Positions 1 through 46,733 of a stretch of DNA of 64,000 nucleotides are shown here, in pieces (the first letter of the stretch is position 1; each line of letters opens with the position of its first letter). This DNA is from Bacteroidia bacterium (lineage in GTDB: Bacteria > Bacteroidota > Bacteroidia > Bacteroidales > Paludibacteraceae): NCBI GenBank assembly GCA_009929375.1, contig SAAO01000004.1, positions 62,001 to 126,000 of the forward strand. Direction: 5' to 3'. A model generated the notes under the pieces. That model was given only the letters and a program-made list of their open reading frames with translations. It ran no database searches and was not told the origin of the DNA. Position numbers and translations under genes: made by a program.

Positions 1-374
1 CAATGAAAACCAAACAGCTGGAAAAAGGTATCAATCAGCTTATGGACGAAGGTGTGGCGCAGTTATTTGTGAATCAGTTCAACAACCGTAAGATTATCGG
101 TACTGTGGGTCAGCTTCAGTTTGAGGTTATTCAGTATCGCCTTTTGCACGAATATGGTGCTCAGTGCCGCTGGGAGCCTATAAACCTGTACAAAGCCTGC
201 TGGATTGAAAGTGACGATGCCACTGAACTCGAAAATTTCAAAAAGCGTAAATCACAATTTATGGCTGTGGATAAAGATGGTCGCGATGTATTTCTGGCCG
301 ATTCAGGTTATGTGCTGCAAATGGCTCAAAACGACTTCAAAAATATCAGATTCCATTTTAGTTCGGAATTTTGA
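1..374 (+). CDS. prfC: Peptide chain release factor 3 (C-terminal fragment)
   Basis: This is the C-terminal ~123 residues of a translational GTPase of the RF3 family, which recycles RF1/RF2 from the ribosome after termination. The frame is open to the left window edge, so the gene is cut by the window rather than broken; the ATG at 3 is an internal methionine. The segment 'EGVAQLFVNQFNNRKIIGTV' followed by 'GQLQFEVIQYRLLHEYGA' matches the RF3 C-terminal domain, including the conserved G-x-LQF-x-V stretch. The G domain lies outside the window. Assignment is from recognition of the family; it cannot be an EF-G because of the short RF3-type ending. Confidence 0.9.
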   Translation, partial: MKTKQLEKGINQLMDEGVAQLFVNQFNNRKIIGTVGQLQFEVIQYRLLHEYGAQCRWEPINLYKACWIESDDATELENFKKRKSQFMAVDKDGRDVFLADSGYVLQMAQNDFKNIRFHFSSEF

Positions 375-571
375 GAATAGTAATTAGTTTCTTAGTTGGT
401 AGTGAGTAGTAAGTAGTTTTTAAAAAAGAATAAGACCCATTCATTATTATATCCCTGTTTGAATTGAATTTCAGACGGGGATTTTTATTAATTTCTCCGG
501 TATTTTGCAAATTGAAATTTGTTTTCTTATTTTGTGTCACTTTTCCAAATGATCAATTAACCTTTTCGTAC

Positions 572-3430
572 ATGAATATAAGCCATCGCATTATCACTTT
601 TTTTATTTTCCAAATGCTTTTGCAATGTGTGTTTTCGCAGGAATTTACGCCCATTGTAAAGCAATATAATAAAAAGGACTACGGCGCTGCCAATCAGAAC
701 TGGGCAGTGGGGCAGGGTGCCGATGGTATGATGTACTTTGGGAATAACAATGGTCTGTTGCAATACGATGGTTCATCATGGGAATTGCACCGTATGCCTC
801 AGAATAAAATTGTGCGTTCACTCCTGGTTTCGGGCGAAAGAATTTATGTGGGCTCGTTCGAAGAGTTTGGTTTTTTTCAGAAAGATGAACTTGGTCAACT
901 TGCTTACACCTCACTTTCCGATAGTCTGAAAGCCTACGATATGCAGAATGATGAAATCTGGACCATTTTGCAACTGAAGGACCGCGTTATTTTCCAGTCC
1001 TTTACTTCATATTTTGAAATGAAGGATAATAAGGTTTACGGGTATCGTTTGCCTTATACTTTTCTGTTTTTCAATCAGTACCGCGATAAAATTTACACAC
1101 ATACCGAACAGATTGGTTTTGGCATTTTCGATATGCAAAAACGAAAACCAATCCCTGTTCAGCAAAATATGTTTGGCAGTCAGGTGTTTTCGGTACTTAC
1201 TTTCGATCCGCTACATGCACTTGTGGTGACAAAGTCGGACGGGCTTTTTCTGTTCGATGGAGCAACATTCAAACCTTTTAAAACGGCTGCTGATGCGGAA
1301 ATTAAACGGGCTGAGATTAACCGCGCGCTGATCACCACCGATGGAATTATTGTACTTGGAACAATCCTCAACGGAGTAACTGCCATCGACAAAAAGGGAA
1401 ATCATTTGTGGACGCTTAATACTTCGAATATTCTGCAAAACAATACGGTTTTAGGCATGTTTTACGATAAAGACAAGAATCTCTGGCTGGCTATGGACAA
1501 AGGACTTGCGTCGATTCAGCTCAATTCCTCTCTGCGTTACATTCATGCATTCAAACCCTCTATCGGAGCTGTATATTCATTAAATTACAATGCTTCAAAT
1601 TTGCTTATCGGAACTAATCAGGGACTTTACCGTGCGCGATATGACGAGAACCGGCGGTCTGTAAGTGACCTGAGGCTTGAACCAGCCTTAAAGGGACAAA
1701 TTTGGAATGTGAGCCGCTTCGATAATCAGGTGATTTGTGGTAACAACGAAGAAACCTATAATATAAATCCCTCGGGAGTTTCGTTTATGTCGCCTGTGCG
1801 CGGAGGCATTTGTATCCGGAAAGGTTTGGTGCAGGGACAGGAAATTCTGGTGCAGGGGACTTATACCGACCTCTGTATTTATACACGCGAAAACGGACAA
1901 TGGAAATTCAGCCATACCGTATCCGGTTTTGTAAATCCTGTGCGCTATATCGAAATTGATTATACAGGTACTATATGGGCCAGTCACCTGCATCAGGGAC
2001 TGTATGCCATAAGGCTGAAGCCTGACTTGAGAAGTATTGAGTACATTCAGACTTTTAATACACTCGATGGAAAAACGCAGGCAAATATCAATGTATTTTC
2101 GGTGAACAACCGTGTGGTATTTACCGATCATAATGCTTTTTACACTTTCGACGATATTCAGAAAAAAATTATTCCGTATAACGAACTGAATGAAAAACTC
2201 GGATATTTTTCAAAAGCCTACAGGGTGAATCATTTCAAGTCGGATTTATACTGGTTTATCCTCGATGGCGAAGCTGCTCTGGTGCGTGTGAAACCAGGTG
2301 AAATTGCTATTCTTGACGTTGTTCATTATTCGCTGTTCCTCAATCAAACGGTTGACGATTATCAGAATATTATTCCCGTTTCGGACAATGAATGCATCTT
2401 TACACTCGAAAATGGTTTGGCACTTTATCGTTACGATGAGTCGCTTAATGAGAAACAAACTACCCGTTTAGCCATTCGGAGCGTACTTAGTTTTGATGCC
2501 GAATCAAAAGAAAATGTTTTTCTTCCTGTCAGTGATTCGGTACTCACAAAATTGCCATTCCGTACAAATAACCTGCTTTTCAGAGTTTTCTACCCGGATT
2601 ATCGTTTGGCTAATTTACTTTATCGTTTTAAACTGAACGGGCTTGATAAAGTGTGGAGCGAACCCACAGCAACTCCTTCGAAAGTATATAACTATCTGCC
2701 TTACGGAGAGTACACGCTCGAAGCTGAGGTGCTCAATAATACAGGAATTGTGCTGTCAACGGTTTCGTACCGTTTCGAAATAAAGCCTCCGTTTTACCTG
2801 AGTTTGCTGGCTAAAATTATATATGTCATATTGATTTTGCTGACGTTTGCGGGAATTTATTTTTATATCCGGCATCTGTTCATGGTTAAAAAGGAGAAAA
2901 TCCACCGAGAACAGGAGGAAATAAGAATGCGAGAAATCGAAAAACGTGAAAAACAGATTATCGAACTCGAAAAGGACAAACTGAAATCGGAGCTGACGCT
3001 GAAAAGCAAGGAATTGGCCGAATCCACCATGACCATTATCAAGAAAAATGAGATTCTGGTGGGAATCAAAGAGGAGGTGATGGCGCACAAAAGCATTTTA
3101 GGTTCGCAATATCCCAACAAGTATTATGATAAACTGATTCGTCTGCTGGACGAAAATCTTAGTTCTGAAGCCGACTGGGCAATATTTCAGACCAACTTCG
3201 ACCGTATTCACGAAAACTTTTTCCGTAACCTGCGCGAACGTTATCCCGAACTAACCTCCAACGACCTGCGCTTCTGTGCATATTTGCGTCTCAATCTGTC
3301 GAGCAAGGACATCGCGCATCTGATGAATATCTCACTCAAGGGGGTAGAGGTAGGCCGCTACCGTATCCGCAAAAAAATAGGTTTGCCCTCGTCGAAAAGC
3401 CTTACTGAATTTATGATTGAGTTTAAATAG
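572..3430 (+). CDS. Transmembrane ligand-sensing regulator: beta-propeller, Y_Y_Y, TM, LuxR-type HTH
   Basis: Predicted one-component transmembrane regulator of about 952 residues. A signal peptide (residues 1-22) precedes a long propeller-like sensor (about 25-660; W/Y-rich blade repeats such as 'MMYFGNNNGLLQYDGSSWE'). A Y_Y_Y-like beta domain follows (about 667-740), then one membrane helix (about 742-770), a charged coiled coil (about 773-830) and a C-terminal helix-turn-helix ('SSKDIAHLMNISLKGVEVGR'). There is no kinase or receiver domain, so this is not a hybrid two-component protein. Start chosen at 572 because it begins directly with a signal peptide; an in-frame ATG at 464 would add 36 residues that spoil it. 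It lies upstream of and codirectional with the GH3/GH144/SusCD genes, so it probably senses a glycan fragment in the periplasm and activates that locus (inference). Confidence 0.82.
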   Translation: MNISHRIITFFIFQMLLQCVFSQEFTPIVKQYNKKDYGAANQNWAVGQGADGMMYFGNNNGLLQYDGSSWELHRMPQNKIVRSLLVSGERIYVGSFEEFGFFQKDELGQLAYTSLSDSLKAYDMQNDEIWTILQLKDRVIFQSFTSYFEMKDNKVYGYRLPYTFLFFNQYRDKIYTHTEQIGFGIFDMQKRKPIPVQQNMFGSQVFSVLTFDPLHALVVTKSDGLFLFDGATFKPFKTAADAEIKRAEINRALITTDGIIVLGTILNGVTAIDKKGNHLWTLNTSNILQNNTVLGMFYDKDKNLWLAMDKGLASIQLNSSLRYIHAFKPSIGAVYSLNYNASNLLIGTNQGLYRARYDENRRSVSDLRLEPALKGQIWNVSRFDNQVICGNNEETYNINPSGVSFMSPVRGGICIRKGLVQGQEILVQGTYTDLCIYTRENGQWKFSHTVSGFVNPVRYIEIDYTGTIWASHLHQGLYAIRLKPDLRSIEYIQTFNTLDGKTQANINVFSVNNRVVFTDHNAFYTFDDIQKKIIPYNELNEKLGYFSKAYRVNHFKSDLYWFILDGEAALVRVKPGEIAILDVVHYSLFLNQTVDDYQNIIPVSDNECIFTLENGLALYRYDESLNEKQTTRLAIRSVLSFDAESKENVFLPVSDSVLTKLPFRTNNLLFRVFYPDYRLANLLYRFKLNGLDKVWSEPTATPSKVYNYLPYGEYTLEAEVLNNTGIVLSTVSYRFEIKPPFYLSLLAKIIYVILILLTFAGIYFYIRHLFMVKKEKIHREQEEIRMREIEKREKQIIELEKDKLKSELTLKSKELAESTMTIIKKNEILVGIKEEVMAHKSILGSQYPNKYYDKLIRLLDENLSSEADWAIFQTNFDRIHENFFRNLRERYPELTSNDLRFCAYLRLNLSSKDIAHLMNISLKGVEVGRYRIRKKIGLPSSKSLTEFMIEFK

Positions 3431-4420: not shown

Positions 4421-6658
4421 ATGAGACACACAATTTATCAAATGCTGCTGATTTCGTTCAGCGTGTTTTTTGTAGCCTGCGGGTCAAAACAGAGTTCAGG
4501 CGATGCCGCACTCGATCAGAAAGTAGATTCAGTACTTCAACTTATGACGCTCGAAGAAAAAATCGGGCAACTTGTACTTTATACAAGCGACTGGGATGTA
4601 ACCGGTCCCACACTCCGAAGCACATATATGGAAGATATCCGCAAAGGTCATTGCGGAAATATATTCAATGCACATACGACGGCCTATGTACGCGAATTAC
4701 AGCGTATCGCTGTTGAAGAATCAAGGTTAGGTATACCGTTGTTGTTTGGTTATGATGTAATCCACGGGCACAAAACGATTTTCCCGATTTCGTTGGGAGA
4801 ATCGGCCTCGTGGGATTTGGAAGCTATTGAAAAAGGTGCCCGTGTAGCTGCTATCGAAGCTGCTGCCTCGGGTCTCAACTGGACTTTTGCGCCCATGGTG
4901 GATATTTCGGTTGAACCACGTTGGGGACGCGTTTCCGAAGGTGCCGGCGAAGATCCTTTTCTGGGCTCAAAAATCGCGGCTGCCCGCGTTCGTGGCTTTC
5001 AGGGCAAGGACAACGACCTTTCCGATACGCTGACTGTACTTGCCACTGTAAAACATTTTGCTGCTTATGGTGCTCCTCAGGCAGGTCGCGATTATAATAC
5101 CGTGGACATGTCGGAGCGTACTTTCCTCGATGTTTATCTCCCTCCTTACAAAGCTGCCATCGATGCCGGTGCTATGAGCGTAATGACTTCGTTCAACGAA
5201 CTCGATGGTGTGCCTGCTACAGGTAATAAATATCTGATGACCGATCTTTTGCGCGATCAGCTTGGCTTTAAAGGCTTTGTGGTGACCGATTATACTTCTA
5301 TCAACGAAATGGTACACCATGGTGTGGCTGCCGACGATGCCGAAGCCGGACTTCTGGCTATAAAAGCCGGAGTGGACATGGATATGCAGGGCGAAGTGTA
5401 TTTCAAATATCTGAAAAAACAGGTAGAAGATGGTTTGGTGGACGAGAAACTGATTGACGAGTCGGTGCGTCGCGTACTGAAAGTGAAATTTATGCTCGGA
5501 CTGTTCGACGACCCTTACCGCTATTGCAATTCAGAGCGCGAGAAACGCTATGTATATGCTCCTGAACATTTGGAAGCCGCTTTGGATGTAGCCAAAAAAT
5601 CGATGGTGTTGCTCAAAAATGATAATCAGGTTTTACCACTTACAAAAGGCGAAAAGTTAGCCGTGATTGGTGAACTAGCCACTTCTACCCGCGATATGCT
5701 GGGTTCGTGGAAAGCTGCTGGTGACTGGGATTTTATGAAATCGTCGCTCGATGAATTGAAAGCTTACAATGGCGAAGGCAATATTATTTTTGCCGAAGGT
5801 GCTAAAAAACAGGGAACTGATCGTAGTGGTTTTGCGGCTGCTGTAGCTGCTGCCCGTCGTGCCGACAAAGTTGTTTTCTTTATGGGTGAAGACTGGGAAT
5901 GGAGTGGCGAAGCTGCCAGTCGTACCGATATTTCGGTGCCGGGTGTGCAGACCGAACTTCTTGCCGAGTTGAAAAAAACCGGAAAACCAATTGTGGTGGT
6001 GCTGATGAATGGTCGCCCGCTGGTGCTCGAACGCGAAAACGCTCTGGCTGATGCCATGCTCGAAACCTGGTATCCCGGAACAATGGGAGGAAAGGCCATT
6101 ACACAGGTACTTTTTGGCGAATACAATCCTTCGGGAAAACTGACCATGACTTTTCCTCTGAATCTTGGACAGGTTCCTGTTTATTATAATGCTAAAAATA
6201 CCGGTCGCCCGATTTATTTGCCAAACGATAAGTACAAATCAAAATATATCGACAGCCCCAACGATCCGCTTTTCCCCTTTGGTTATGGTTTGAGTTACAC
6301 AAAATTTGAATATTCAGACATTACACTTTCGACAACAGAGTTATCGGCTAACGGTGAACTTACAGCCAAAGTGGTAGTGAAAAATACAGGTAAGTACGAT
6401 GGCGAAGAAGTGGTTCAAATGTATGTACGCGACCTTGTAGGCAGTGTTACCCGTCCGGTAAAAGAACTGAAGGGCTTTGAAAAAGTGATGATCAAAGCAG
6501 GCGAAAGCAAGGAAGTTACATTTAAAATCACCCCTGATATGCTTGCGTTTCACCGTATTGATATGACTTACGGAACCGAACCGGGTGACTATAAATTGTT
6601 TATTGGTGGTAATTCACGCGATGTAAAAGAAACAGGATTTAAGATCCCTGCCCCCTAA
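4421..6658 (+). CDS. bglX: Glycoside hydrolase family 3 beta-glucosidase, lipoprotein
   Basis: About 745 residues, BglX-like GH3 architecture: lipoprotein signal peptide ending at Cys20 ('SFSVFFVACGS'), (beta/alpha)8 domain, alpha/beta sandwich and a C-terminal fibronectin-III-like domain. The nucleophile is Asp290 in 'GFVVTDYTS' and the likely acid/base is Glu497 in 'EWSGEAASR'. It should release glucose from the non-reducing end of beta-gluco-oligosaccharides in the periplasm or at the outer membrane. Start at 4421 gives a clean lipoprotein signal; an in-frame ATG at 4367 precedes the -7 element and is unlikely. The last residues 'PAP' and the TAA stop are encoded by the left arm of a palindromic repeat (6647-6790), so the native C-terminus was probably changed by that insertion. 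Next to a GH144-like gene, sophoro-oligosaccharides are the best guess for substrate. Confidence 0.9.
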   Translation: MRHTIYQMLLISFSVFFVACGSKQSSGDAALDQKVDSVLQLMTLEEKIGQLVLYTSDWDVTGPTLRSTYMEDIRKGHCGNIFNAHTTAYVRELQRIAVEESRLGIPLLFGYDVIHGHKTIFPISLGESASWDLEAIEKGARVAAIEAAASGLNWTFAPMVDISVEPRWGRVSEGAGEDPFLGSKIAAARVRGFQGKDNDLSDTLTVLATVKHFAAYGAPQAGRDYNTVDMSERTFLDVYLPPYKAAIDAGAMSVMTSFNELDGVPATGNKYLMTDLLRDQLGFKGFVVTDYTSINEMVHHGVAADDAEAGLLAIKAGVDMDMQGEVYFKYLKKQVEDGLVDEKLIDESVRRVLKVKFMLGLFDDPYRYCNSEREKRYVYAPEHLEAALDVAKKSMVLLKNDNQVLPLTKGEKLAVIGELATSTRDMLGSWKAAGDWDFMKSSLDELKAYNGEGNIIFAEGAKKQGTDRSGFAAAVAAARRADKVVFFMGEDWEWSGEAASRTDISVPGVQTELLAELKKTGKPIVVVLMNGRPLVLERENALADAMLETWYPGTMGGKAITQVLFGEYNPSGKLTMTFPLNLGQVPVYYNAKNTGRPIYLPNDKYKSKYIDSPNDPLFPFGYGLSYTKFEYSDITLSTTELSANGELTAKVVVKNTGKYDGEEVVQMYVRDLVGSVTRPVKELKGFEKVMIKAGESKEVTFKITPDMLAFHRIDMTYGTEPGDYKLFIGGNSRDVKETGFKIPAP

Positions 6659-6790
6659 ATCCCCCAAGGGGGACTTAAATGCCCATTTTTAAAAGTTTGA
6701 TATATTTTTAATTTAAGAATTACGATTGAAAAGCTAAAATAATAACACACTATCTGCGCTTATTCCCCCTTTAGGGGGTTAGGGGGCTGG
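6647..6790. mobile_element. Palindromic C/G-rich element, 144 bp, no nuclease (non-autonomous copy)
   Basis: Two 27-nt arms in inverted orientation, 6647-6673 ('ccccctaaatcccccaaggg' core) and 6764-6790 ('ccccctttagggggttaggg' core), enclose about 90 nt of AT-rich non-coding DNA. The arms match those bordering the DUF559 insertion in purL. Each arm is itself a small hairpin (ccccc/ggggg). The GH3 stop codon lies inside the left arm and the element ends 15 nt before the next gene, so it occupies nearly the whole intergenic gap within the operon. Confidence 0.75.
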
Positions 6791-42608: not shown

Positions 42609-45600
42609 ATGATTCAGTTTTTCCGAACTCCCGCCCAACATGTCTATGCAGTGCATACTGCCGGCAATTTGTCGAACGATGATGTCCGAAAGTTAGAATG
42701 GCTTTTCAGCGAAGCAAAGTTAGTACCTCAGCCCACAGTTGAAGGAAACTTTGTCGGCCCGCGCCGCGAAATGATTACTCCCTGGAGTACAAATGCCGTT
42801 GAAATAACTCAAAATATGGGTATCAGCGGCATTCTTCGTATTGAAGAGTTCAGGTTGTTGCCGCATACACCTTCGGTGCAGGGCACATTGGAGTATGATC
42901 CTATGCTCGAGCGTATTTACACAAATCTGAATCAGGATATTTTTACGATTGACAAACAGCCCGAGCCAATTCTGTATATCGACGATATTGCCGCATACAA
43001 CGAAAAGGAAGGACTTGCACTTAGCAGCGATGAAATTGCATATCTCAACGAAGTGAGTACAAAAGTAGGTCGCAAACTCACCGATAGCGAGGTATTTGGT
43101 TTTTCGCAGGTAAACTCAGAGCATTGTCGTCACAAAATATTCAACGGACAATATATTATTGATGGAGAAGAAAAAGAACTTTCACTTTTCAAACTCATCA
43201 AAAAAACTTCGGAAGAAAATCCTAATGCGCTTGTTTCGGCTTATAAGGACAATGTGGCTTTCAATGCCGGACCAAAAATTGAACAATTTGCACCTGCCAG
43301 TGGCGATAAACCTGACTTTTTCCAGACAAAGGAAATTGATTCAGTTATCTCGCTGAAGGCTGAAACGCATAACTTCCCCACAACAGTAGAACCTTTCAAT
43401 GGTGCAGCTACCGGAACCGGAGGCGAAATCCGCGACCGTCTGGGTGGAGGTAAAGCCAGTTTGCCAATTGCTGGAACAGCTGTGTATATGACTTCTTATG
43501 CCCGCAACGACAACAACCGTCAGTGGGAAAATAATATTGCGCCACGCAAATGGTTGTATCAAACACCTGAACAAATTCTGATCAAAGCTTCGAACGGAGC
43601 TTCTGATTTCGGAAACAAATTCGGTCAGCCACTTATCTGCGGTTCGTTGCTTACCTTCGAACATCAGGAAAACGACAAGAAATTCGGTTACGATAAAGTG
43701 ATTATGCTTGCCGGAGGTGTGGGATTCGGAACTGTACGCGACGCTTTGAAAGGTAATGTGGAAGCCGGTGAAAAAGTGGTGGTAATGGGTGGCGACAACT
43801 ACCGCATTGGTATGGGTGGTGCTGCTGTATCATCGGTTCAAACCGGAGAATACGAAAATGCGATTGAACTTAATGCAGTACAGCGCGCTAATCCTGAAAT
43901 GCAGAAAAGGGTAGCGAATGTTATCAGAACGCTTGCCGAATCTGACGAAAATCCGATTGTTTCTATTCACGACCACGGTGCAGGCGGACACCTCAACTGT
44001 TTGTCGGAACTGGTGGAAACAACAGGTGGAAAAATTGATATGTCGAAACTGCCTGTGGGTGACCCTACTTTAAGTGCGAAGGAAATTGTGGGTAACGAAA
44101 GTCAGGAGCGTATGGGACTCGTGATTTCGGAAAAAGATGTGGAAAAAGTGAATCGAATTGCCGAACGCGAACGTGCTCCGTTTTATGTGGTGGGTGAAAC
44201 TACCGGTGATATGAGATTGACTTTTGAAATGCCGCTGCCCCCTAACCCCCTGAAGGGGGAACAACAGGGTATGCAAACGGCGTATCCATCTATATATTCC
44301 CGATTAAAAGAATTGTCTGTAAGAAACAGACATAATCCAACTCCGGCAGAAGAATTTCTTTGGGAACAATTGAAAGGAAAAAATCTTGAAAATTTTAAAT
44401 TCAGGAGACAACATATTATTGGTGATTGTATAGCTGATTTTGTGTGTTTGCAAAACAAATTAGTAATTGAAGTTGATGGAGGGTATCACAACGACCCTGA
44501 AGTAGTTGAATACGACAAATTAAGAACTCAACTTTTTGAAGAATATGGATTCAAAGTAATTCGCTTTACAAACGAAGAAGTATTAGGAAAAATTGAGAAT
44601 GTTCTTGATTCAATAAAACTTGAGTTGCGCTCGGATAACTCCCCCTTTAGGGGGTTGGGGGGCAGCTATCCTATTGATTTAGCTTTAGAAGATATGTTCG
44701 GTAAACCACCCCGTATGGTTATTACCGATAATAGTATCGGGGAACATTATGCAGCTCCCGAAATTTCGGAAGAAAAACTGCAATCGTATATCGAAAATGT
44801 ATTGCAGGTGGAATCAGTGGCTTGTAAAGACTGGTTGACGAATAAAGTAGACCGTTCGGTAACTGGTAAAATTGCCCGTCAGCAATGTGCGGGCGAAATT
44901 CAGTTGCCATTGAACGACCTCGGAGTAGTGGCTCTTGATTATCGCGGAACAAGCGGTATTGCTACTTCTATCGGACATGCGCCACTGGTAGCCATGGCAG
45001 ATTCTGAAGCCGGTTCGGTAATGGCTATTGCCGAAGCTCTGACCAATATTGTATGGGCACCACTTAAAGACGGACTCGATAGTGTGTCGCTGAGTGCTAA
45101 CTGGATGTGGCCGTGTAAAAATCCGGGTGAAGATGCCCGCCTGTACAAAGCTGTGGAAGCTTGTTCGGATTTTGCCTGTTCATTGGGTATCAATATCCCG
45201 ACAGGAAAGGATTCGCTCTCGATGACTCAGAAATATGGCAACGACAAAGTGTTTTCGCCCGGAACTGTAATTATTTCGGCAGGTGCTGAGGTGTCGGATG
45301 TGAAGAAAGTAGTTTCGCCTGTGTTGCAAAACGACGAAAAAACGACTATTTATTATATAGATTTCTCTTTCGATAAACATAAACTGGGTGGCTCGGTACT
45401 GGCTCAAACGCTGAATAAAATTGGCGATGAAGTGCCAACCGTACAAGATGCTGAGTACTTCAAAGCTGCTTTCGATAGCATTCAGGAAATGATTGCTCAG
45501 AATCTGATTCTGGCCGGTCATGATATTTCCGAAGGAGGTATGATTACTGCATTGCTCGAAATGTGTTTTGCCAATTCGAAAGGAGGTTTGAATGTAAACC

Positions 45601-46733
45601 TCGATTATATTGCCGAAAACTCACTCGTAACCATGCTTTTTGCCGAAAATCCGGGTGTGCTTATTCAGGTGAAAGACCGTAAACCGGTTGAGAAAATCCT
45701 GAACGACAACGGAATTGGTTTTGCGCGCATTGCTACACCGATTGCTGAACGTCGTTTGGATATTACACGCAAAAAAGAATCATATTCCTTCTCAATCAAC
45801 GACCTGCGCGATCTGTGGTTCAAAACTTCATACCTGCTCGATCGTAAACAAAGCGGTGAGGTTTGTGCACAACAACGTTTTACAAATTATAAAAACCAAC
45901 CACTCGAATTTGCATTCAACAGTTCGTTCAAAGGTAAATTCTCGCAGTTTGGTATTTCTCCTGATCGTAAGCAGAGCGGTGTGAAAGCTGCGATTATTCG
46001 CGAAAAAGGAACAAACGGTGAGCGTGAAATGGCTTATGCACTTTATCTGGCCGGATTCGATGTGAAGGATGTGCATATGACCGACCTTGCAACCGGACGC
46101 GAAACGCTCGAAGATGTGAACATGATTGTATTCTGCGGTGGTTTCTCCAACTCGGATGTGCTTGGTTCTGCCAAAGGTTGGGCCGGAGGTTTCCTTTTCA
46201 ACGAAAAAGCAAAACTGGCGCTGGATAATTTCTACAAACGCAACGATACATTAAGTCTCGGAATTTGCAATGGTTGTCAGTTGATGGTCGAACTGGGTGT
46301 GCTTACCCCTGATCAAGATGTGAAACCACGCATGTTGCACAACGATTCACATAAATTCGAATCTCAGTTTGTGGGTCTTACTATTCCTGAAAATAATTCA
46401 GTGATGCTTGGTTCGCTCAGCGGAAGTAAACTTGGTGTCTGGGTAGCTCATGGCGAAGGAAAGTTCAATCTGCCAAAAGCTGAAAATGAGTACAACATCA
46501 TTGCTAAATATACACATGCCGATTATCCGGCTAATCCAAATGGCTCCGACTATAATACTGCAGGTATCTGCTCGGCCGATGGACGACACCTGGCCATGAT
46601 GCCACACCCTGAGCGTGCCATTTTCCCGTGGCAGTGTGCTCATTATCCTGTTAATCGTAAAAATAACGATCAGGTTACCCCGTGGATCGAAGCATTTGTA
46701 AATGCCAGAGTCTGGGTTGAGAAAAATAAATAA
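42609..46733 (+). CDS. purL: Phosphoribosylformylglycinamidine synthase interrupted in frame by a DUF559 insertion
   Basis: 1374 residues. FGAM synthase uses glutamine and ATP to convert FGAR to FGAM in purine synthesis. All large-type PurL parts are present: N-terminal PurS-like domain (about 1-150), first synthetase half ('FGFSQVNSEHCRHKIFNG', 'LKAETHNFPTTVEPFNGAAT'), second half (from 'PIDLALEDMFGKPPRM'), and a glutaminase domain with Cys1220 in 'LGICNGCQLM' and His in 'MMPHPERA'. Residues about 542-686 are foreign: a complete DUF559 nuclease-like domain between 27-nt inverted repeats. Removing them leaves about 1230 residues, the normal length. The frame stays open through both arms ('PLPPNPLKGE' and 'NSPFRGLGGS'). 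The site is a loop just before a conserved segment, so the enzyme may still fold. No intein splicing motifs are seen. Confidence 0.95.
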   Translation: MIQFFRTPAQHVYAVHTAGNLSNDDVRKLEWLFSEAKLVPQPTVEGNFVGPRREMITPWSTNAVEITQNMGISGILRIEEFRLLPHTPSVQGTLEYDPMLERIYTNLNQDIFTIDKQPEPILYIDDIAAYNEKEGLALSSDEIAYLNEVSTKVGRKLTDSEVFGFSQVNSEHCRHKIFNGQYIIDGEEKELSLFKLIKKTSEENPNALVSAYKDNVAFNAGPKIEQFAPASGDKPDFFQTKEIDSVISLKAETHNFPTTVEPFNGAATGTGGEIRDRLGGGKASLPIAGTAVYMTSYARNDNNRQWENNIAPRKWLYQTPEQILIKASNGASDFGNKFGQPLICGSLLTFEHQENDKKFGYDKVIMLAGGVGFGTVRDALKGNVEAGEKVVVMGGDNYRIGMGGAAVSSVQTGEYENAIELNAVQRANPEMQKRVANVIRTLAESDENPIVSIHDHGAGGHLNCLSELVETTGGKIDMSKLPVGDPTLSAKEIVGNESQERMGLVISEKDVEKVNRIAERERAPFYVVGETTGDMRLTFEMPLPPNPLKGEQQGMQTAYPSIYSRLKELSVRNRHNPTPAEEFLWEQLKGKNLENFKFRRQHIIGDCIADFVCLQNKLVIEVDGGYHNDPEVVEYDKLRTQLFEEYGFKVIRFTNEEVLGKIENVLDSIKLELRSDNSPFRGLGGSYPIDLALEDMFGKPPRMVITDNSIGEHYAAPEISEEKLQSYIENVLQVESVACKDWLTNKVDRSVTGKIARQQCAGEIQLPLNDLGVVALDYRGTSGIATSIGHAPLVAMADSEAGSVMAIAEALTNIVWAPLKDGLDSVSLSANWMWPCKNPGEDARLYKAVEACSDFACSLGINIPTGKDSLSMTQKYGNDKVFSPGTVIISAGAEVSDVKKVVSPVLQNDEKTTIYYIDFSFDKHKLGGSVLAQTLNKIGDEVPTVQDAEYFKAAFDSIQEMIAQNLILAGHDISEGGMITALLEMCFANSKGGLNVNLDYIAENSLVTMLFAENPGVLIQVKDRKPVEKILNDNGIGFARIATPIAERRLDITRKKESYSFSINDLRDLWFKTSYLLDRKQSGEVCAQQRFTNYKNQPLEFAFNSSFKGKFSQFGISPDRKQSGVKAAIIREKGTNGEREMAYALYLAGFDVKDVHMTDLATGRETLEDVNMIVFCGGFSNSDVLGSAKGWAGGFLFNEKAKLALDNFYKRNDTLSLGICNGCQLMVELGVLTPDQDVKPRMLHNDSHKFESQFVGLTIPENNSVMLGSLSGSKLGVWVAHGEGKFNLPKAENEYNIIAKYTHADYPANPNGSDYNTAGICSADGRHLAMMPHPERAIFPWQCAHYPVNRKNNDQVTPWIEAFVNARVWVEKNK
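44234..44666 (+). mobile_element. DUF559-encoding palindromic element inserted in purL
   Basis: Inverted ends 44234-44260 ('accccctgaaggggga' at the inner side) and 44640-44666 ('tccccctttagggggttg' at the inner side) agree at 25 of 27 positions after reverse complementing. Between them an open frame, in frame with purL, encodes a DUF559 domain of the Vsr/PD-(D/E)xK type: 'NPTPAEEFLWEQLKGK', 'KFRRQHIIGDCIADFVC' and 'LVIEVDGGYHND', then 'EEYGFKVIRFTNEEVL'. The Asp of 'ADF' and the Glu-x-Asp of 'IEVDG' fit the metal-binding core, so the nuclease looks intact. The DUF559 part could be made as part of the fusion or from an internal ATG at 44271. No clear target duplication is visible. Confidence 0.9.

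Follow-up and report, generated by a model that had tools for sequence, protein, structure and literature searches.

A DUF559 nuclease-like domain between inverted repeats, in frame within PurL: a candidate splice-free, homing-like element of Bacteroidota

The purL gene of a Bacteroidia bacterium (Paludibacteraceae) raises the question of how a nuclease-like domain bounded by inverted repeats comes to reside in the reading frame of an essential-type enzyme, and whether it belongs to a mobile element that is tolerated rather than removed. The window, that is, the whole stretch of DNA analysed, comprises 64,000 nucleotides of a genome of 3.87 Mb in 122 contigs (completeness 99.98). The following features of the window are relevant to this question.

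42609 to 46733, + strand: purL open reading frame (phosphoribosylformylglycinamidine synthase), from open-frame reading and Pfam; the sole purL match of the genome
about 44235 to 44665, + strand: the element, 431 nt, with ends CTG...CAG to CTG...CAG
44235 to 44260, + strand: left end repeat, read as LPPNPLKG in the host frame
44304 to 44627, + strand: DUF559 nuclease-like domain, amino acids 566–673, from Pfam and conserved positions
44640 to 44665, - strand: right end repeat, inverted, read as SPFRGLGG in the host frame
6651 to 6786, no strand assigned: second inverted pair of end repeats, 136 bp, without a gene, the left copy having 3 mismatches

The purL frame is a single open frame of 1374 aa that includes the element, whose borders were deduced from flank conservation among 38 repeat copies together with sites that are empty. 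A preliminary description of this locus had reported an in-frame segment with 27-nt inverted repeats, both arms of which are translated, and an intact DUF559 domain within an otherwise normal PurL, and both statements were confirmed. The arms (44234–44260 and 44640–44666) are 93 % complementary and encode Pro/Gly-rich linkers in the host frame; the left arm contains a stop in both non-host frames and the right arm in one of the two. The DUF559 match (PF04480) is strong (E 2.4e-31, 108.3 bits, with a curated cut-off of 20.6) and is flanked by PurL domains on either side. The C-terminal half of PurL has one match in the genome, this being the only purL detected, and since no stop lies between DUF559 and the remainder of PurL, the nuclease would be joined to at least the C-terminal part of the enzyme, unless it is freed by a protease.

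Judged by the frame and by the border residues as read by eye, the element is an internal domain of PurL, neither a free gene nor situated in a visible intron or intein. A Pfam scan of the fusion returned PurL domains, DUF559 and MTES_1575 only, with no intein splicing domain, and reading of the junctions by eye revealed no splicing residues, in agreement with the preliminary description; identity with an intein was rejected on these grounds. One might nevertheless suppose that removal takes place at the RNA or protein level, by way of an intein, an intron or translational bypass, leaving an enzyme that works without the insert. Residence in conserved loops of essential enzymes is indeed intein-like, but in addition to the missing border residues, the reading frame runs on across both ends and linker-like sequence has taken the place of the loop, neither of which would be required by splicing or bypass, and removal is considered very improbable.

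Comparison with relatives indicates how the PurL loop came to be occupied. In the family survey of 150 genomes, 123 matched the PurL-plus-insert query, with four PurLs matching the whole query (genomes G000, G094, G031 and G076). The preliminary description had held that presence of the segment in all relatives would speak against mobility; among 27 PurLs with readable flanks, which are the best-scoring loci giving both flanks and whose proportions are not frequencies, four are occupied, two carry shorter in-frame remnants and 21 have empty loops of 6–11 residues. The remnants are a 34-aa in-frame end pair without DUF559 (G051, locus L121) and half an element, also in frame (G039, L120), both at the PurL loop. 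The earlier idea of an insertion into a loop was upheld as to the site, which is empty in relatives, but not as a simple addition, as the loop codons (E)QxDGxK have largely been replaced in comparison with empty relatives, with a net gain of 414–423 nt. No target duplication was seen at the PurL or RecG junctions, for which the empty relatives are too diverged for certainty. Loop replacement without visible duplication would fit a break, the loss of a few codons and repair, and the empty loop of G092 holds GGGGAGGCT, which also terminates the element in G076, a hint of microhomology.

On a PurL tree built without the insert, occupied PurLs are nested among or beside empty ones, and four changes are needed, four being forced by the starred branches, which is incompatible with strict descent of the insert without gains or precise losses. 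Gain and loss are not distinguishable from the tree itself; gains are taken to dominate because the conserved loop is present in empty relatives and would have to be re-created by any precise loss. In a tree of the DUF559 domains, which is short and has 48 of 114 inner branches unresolved, the window's insert and that of G094 cluster with those of SpoIID-like proteins (support 95), and the inserts of G031 and G076 with those of ValRS (support 97), such that two or more lineages of the element seem to have arrived at the PurL loop. The mobility that had previously been deduced from the repeats is therefore supported by the separate changes found in the PurL phylogeny and by two DUF559 lineages at one loop, and additionally by near-identical copies at two ileS sites and by in-frame relatives in many enzyme families.

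The ileS copies occur in genome G042, at two different places, and share 416 of 433 nt (96 %). Their identity begins at CAGACCCCCC and stops at GGGGG(C/G)TCTG, i.e. at the element ends, and such near-identical copies at different sites are a feature of DNA transposons; since both are near contig ends, they may belong to one gene. A further occupied site lies in RecG. Among 120 genomes of the family to which G252 belongs, RecG was matched in 119, and three of the 119, including G252 as the search centre, match over the insert. Reading of 44 RecG loci (L187 and L290 being from the same genome, and L249 and L288 identical in host sequence) revealed 17 occupied and 27 unoccupied ones, six of the latter with lengthened loops. 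On a RecG tree of 43 rows, the occupied state needs nine changes, at least four of them forced, and the occupied label is clustered (6 of 500 shuffles as low), so part of the occupation may be inherited. End-like pieces joined in frame are found at the RecG insertion site of L293. The RecG loops of L291, L292, L302, L312 and L315, which are longer than usual at this site, may be old scars.

As far as can be judged from sequence, the purL case is one of many. DUF559 was matched in 65 of the 150 family genomes, and half of the family DUF559 rows of at least 92 bits (44 of 88) belong to open frames 400 aa or more in length; in a survey of the phylum, 162 of 395 genomes match DUF559 at 1e-15. Among 118 domain rows drawn from both surveys, with one copy (L143/L204) counted twice, the frame extends for 70 aa or more to either side of the domain in 81 rows (80 copies), a share that is not a frequency because long frames were fetched by preference. 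A scan of named genomes confirmed at least 574 stretches, and the 80 best loci, at least six of which repeat survey records, contain 81 domains; 64 of these domains have host frame to either side, unlike the other 17, and the titles of the best 80 refer to Bacteroidota groups, save one Ignavibacterium MAG.

Outside restriction-modification, 21 enzyme families carry related elements in frame, several of them known from one case and each named by a profile or solved-structure match of one representative: PurL, ValRS, IleRS, LeuRS, MetH, UvrA, DegT aminotransferase, SpoIID, PrmC, RecG, urocanate hydratase, PaaZ, ABC-F, CinA, MazG, MetRS, MnmE, GH31, IcmF, UvrD-type helicase and peptidase M23. DUF559 is also present in three kinds of restriction-modification methylase, which were left out of the 21 families because there it may be a true restriction nuclease; by eye, two further clusters resemble restriction subunits. 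Many of these genomes are drafts, that of the window itself being in 122 contigs, and an assembly or binning artefact might be suspected; its probability is practically negligible, as in-frame copies occur in single-contig genomes (LeuRS and RecG of G252, MetH of G385, LeuRS of G178 and RecG of G601) and in named strains, for example Salegentibacter holothuriorum DSM 23405 (MetH) and Tenacibaculum gallaicum DSM 18841 (RecG).

Standalone copies were considered as relics of broken host genes, an explanation that was rejected since host-like sequence lies upstream in just 2 of the 37 copies that lack host frame on at least one side. In L207, a DUF559 copy is fused to the end of a frame for a PurL-like amidotransferase, whereas in L085 one lies downstream of a metH frame, with stops between. 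Phages as vehicles were also rejected; the 49 loci in viral contigs have identities of 26–50 %, and the best of them, L318, is an in-frame ValRS copy (frame 1–3180). Further along the ValRS of L318, a second short in-frame stretch resembles, by eye, a pair of ends. Several end-like peptide stretches in series surround DUF559 in L071 (PrmC) and L098 (UvrA), as if elements had inserted into or beside one another, and in L193 (G410) an N-terminal DUF559 between end-like stretches continues in frame into a part that by eye is HisF-like.

The exposure of insertion sites was judged solely by where alignments to solved structures break, that is, at 205/210 of ValRS (1gax), 238/243 of LeuRS (2v0c), 535/540 of IleRS (1ile), 516/519 of RecG (1gm5), 92/96 of MetH (1bmt) and 600/624 of PurL (9n9w). 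In ValRS and LeuRS alike, the insertion site leads into a TTRPxT-like motif, so that the two loops may be equivalent.

With respect to the nuclease itself, the domain profile matched first, among solved structures, 3HRL, an 'endonuclease-like protein' (E 3.9e-30), and second 3R3P, a 'mobile intron protein' (E 1.9e-6), followed by PvuRts1I (0.007). We take 3R3P to be I-Bth0305I, of the EDxHD or Vsr-like homing endonuclease type. The positions invariant in 18 relatives include E21, D50, E61, D63, H67 and D76, which would presumably suit an EDxHD or PD-(D/E)xK site. The nuclease domain is under purifying selection, as indicated by insert dN/dS values of 0.046–0.354 in the computable pairs, many pairs being saturated at silent sites; for the G000 and G094 inserts, dN is 0.138 and dS 0.787. 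Silent change is lower in the insert than in far host codons in 11 of 11 pairs, with p <0.05 in four and not in seven, where the p values are uncorrected and the 11 pairs are not all independent. The four comprise two Tenacibaculum (15/126 in the insert vs 172/551 in far host codons), the window and G094 (35/97 vs 438/912), L043/L047 and L252/L255. No clear co-conversion tract was found around the insert, although two Tenacibaculum recG genes show a sharp edge.

Purifying selection may also be taken to mean that DUF559 serves the cell, for example in defence or DNA repair, as an inherited fusion that empty relatives have lost, and the presence of related DUF559 domains in restriction-modification proteins and the partial clustering of the RecG label on the host tree point in the same direction. 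This explanation is at odds with the sporadic distribution of the element (4 of 123 PurL-matching and 3 of 119 RecG-matching genomes, one of them the search centre), with different DUF559 lineages at the single PurL loop, with the unrelated hosts and with the decayed in-frame remnants, and it appears improbable.

Far from being absent elsewhere in the genome, an absence that the preliminary description had named as an argument against mobility, end repeats with at most 3 mismatches occur 41 times (22 on the + and 19 on the - strand), with none in a reversed control; a slightly wider pattern occurs 54 times, again with none in the control, and the window holds 4 copies vs 0 in 100 dinucleotide shuffles. 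Of 38 distinct repeat copies taken from 32 loci, 36 have a G ahead of the C-run, with conservation tailing off about four bases farther out. The ends do not occur with DUF559 alone; across the genome, the majority of copies stand singly or as inverted pairs spanning 129–148 bp without DUF559; by eye, several sit right before a start codon. Conversely, both DUF559 copies in the window's genome are enclosed by inverted ends, and in the family an inverted repeat (score of at least 12 within 300 bp each side of DUF559) flanks 50 of 58 distinct DUF559 copies vs 2 of 53 control flanks farther out. Arm sequences vary among DUF559 groups, and the C-run/G-run design is common to all. Folding of the ends as single-stranded DNA was no better than in shuffles (z -0.55 and -0.76). 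At L028 (C53:59110 of the same genome), a single end repeat lies in frame within a 687-aa aldolase/short-chain dehydrogenase frame (855–2915).

Repeats of this type may be ordinary REP/BIME-type ends moved by RAYT, a Y1 transposase, or by some other cellular enzyme, with DUF559 as a passenger between two of them. The predominance of repeats without DUF559 would suit such a passenger, as would the occurrence of RAYT genes in 86 of 150 family genomes (5 matches in the window's genome), with a slight enrichment in repeat-bearing genomes (18 of the 24 with at least 5 end repeats vs 68 of the 126 others, p 0.044). DUF559, however, is present in 20 of these 24 genomes vs 45 of the 126 others (p 1.6e-5), and at 10 or more repeats the link is with DUF559 (12 of 14, p 0.00088) and not with RAYT (10 of 14, p 0.2). 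G076, G092 and G112 are rich in repeats (91, 72 and 26, respectively) and possess DUF559, while lacking a RAYT match; on the other hand, G127, a genome 87 % complete, has 34 repeats with DUF559 not detected, which counts against a homing-like reading. None of 12 RAYTs read sits between these end repeats; one has a single end-repeat copy about 1.2 kb off, and several have other inverted repeats. Among the matches listed, no RAYT is found in a long frame, the longest RAYT frame of the family genomes being 250 aa. RAYT as the simple partner of the end repeats was rejected because its surroundings differ and the DUF559 link is stronger at 10 or more repeats, and movement of a passenger by RAYT or another cell enzyme is unlikely as a general explanation, although it may hold for founding jumps. 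At two RAYT loci of G031 (L134 and L135), the inverted repeats that enclose RAYT are long and of another kind (scores 44 and 41.5).

The reading that best accommodates these observations, to which we assign a probability of about 0.65, is that the element is a mobile unit of about 0.43 kb, composed of REP-like inverted ends and DUF559, which would live as a translated, unspliced loop domain of housekeeping proteins and spread in a homing-like manner. Residence, frame, repeated occupation, remnants and constraint can be read from the sequences themselves, and the 'tolerance instead of splicing' proposed in the preliminary description fits what was seen. According to the mechanism proposed, the nuclease would cut an unoccupied loop or a sequence resembling it, whereupon repair would copy the element in, in the fashion of a homing endonuclease. 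Rare jumps to new loops would found new host lineages, with in-frame, tolerated insertions being the only survivors. A conserved essential gene as residence would offer expression, a conserved target and a shield against deletion, and the terminal repeats may have been selected both as DNA ends and as harmless protein linkers. Aged copies would drop the nuclease, leaving in-frame scars.

Similarities to several known systems are apparent. Homing endonucleases of the EDxHD or Vsr-like type (3R3P) have a related nuclease domain, occupied and empty alleles at conserved sites, as seen here in PurL and RecG, and decay at the site; whereas they sit in an intron, an intein or a free gene, the element seems to be a permanent, in-frame domain of a host enzyme between repeat ends. 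A DUF559 gene has been assigned to the EDxHD homing family, and the parts of that paper available to us make no mention of in-frame, tolerated residence in housekeeping enzymes (PMC9403480). Inteins are likewise in frame at conserved sites of essential proteins and contain a nuclease, but the element is devoid of a splicing domain and of visible splicing residues, and the loop is replaced rather than restored. As far as described in the accessible parts of the source, Rickettsia palindromic elements (RPE) and other in-frame bacterial MITEs have palindromic ends and are tolerated in frame in conserved proteins without splicing, RPE being 105–146 bp long with no nuclease (PMC2229807). The element differs by embedding an intact DUF559 domain, while the 34-aa remnant in the PurL of G051 looks RPE-like. 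With REP/BIME and RAYT it has in common short GC-rich palindromic ends and solitary and paired intergenic copies, except that DUF559 and not a Y1 transposase lies between the ends.

In fungal mitochondria, homing genes are fused to host genes such as rps3, at the C-terminus and with duplication of host sequence. A nuclease gene is joined in frame to a host gene in both situations, but the element described here is internal and is found in many unrelated enzymes across a bacterial phylum. No description of a splice-free, in-frame nuclease element was found in the literature searched, the scope of which excluded most subscription papers and bioRxiv preprints. Because the element departs in some defining feature from every known kind considered, it was judged to be a new kind. 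It seems fairly probable that a separate class of selfish elements is involved, namely splice-free 'read-through' homing elements, the nuclease of which would exist solely as a domain of essential enzymes, and which would spread across a phylum through repeated entry into the same loops and the occasional founding of new host proteins, with ends that double as linkers. Each part of the element has a precedent, and giving more weight to the homing kinship would make it a variant of the homing family.

The selfish nuclease genes known from within essential proteins belong for the most part to introns and inteins, both of which erase themselves. If tolerance suffices, the element would represent a third mode of residence in an essential gene, and a parasite would be harboured by many Bacteroidota proteins annotated as 'enzymes'. 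The occupied PurL, tRNA synthetases, MetH and RecG would then constitute natural repeated experiments in domain insertion and a route to new protein architecture, and the elements could serve to trace gene flow and might perhaps yield compact nucleases that recognise long targets.
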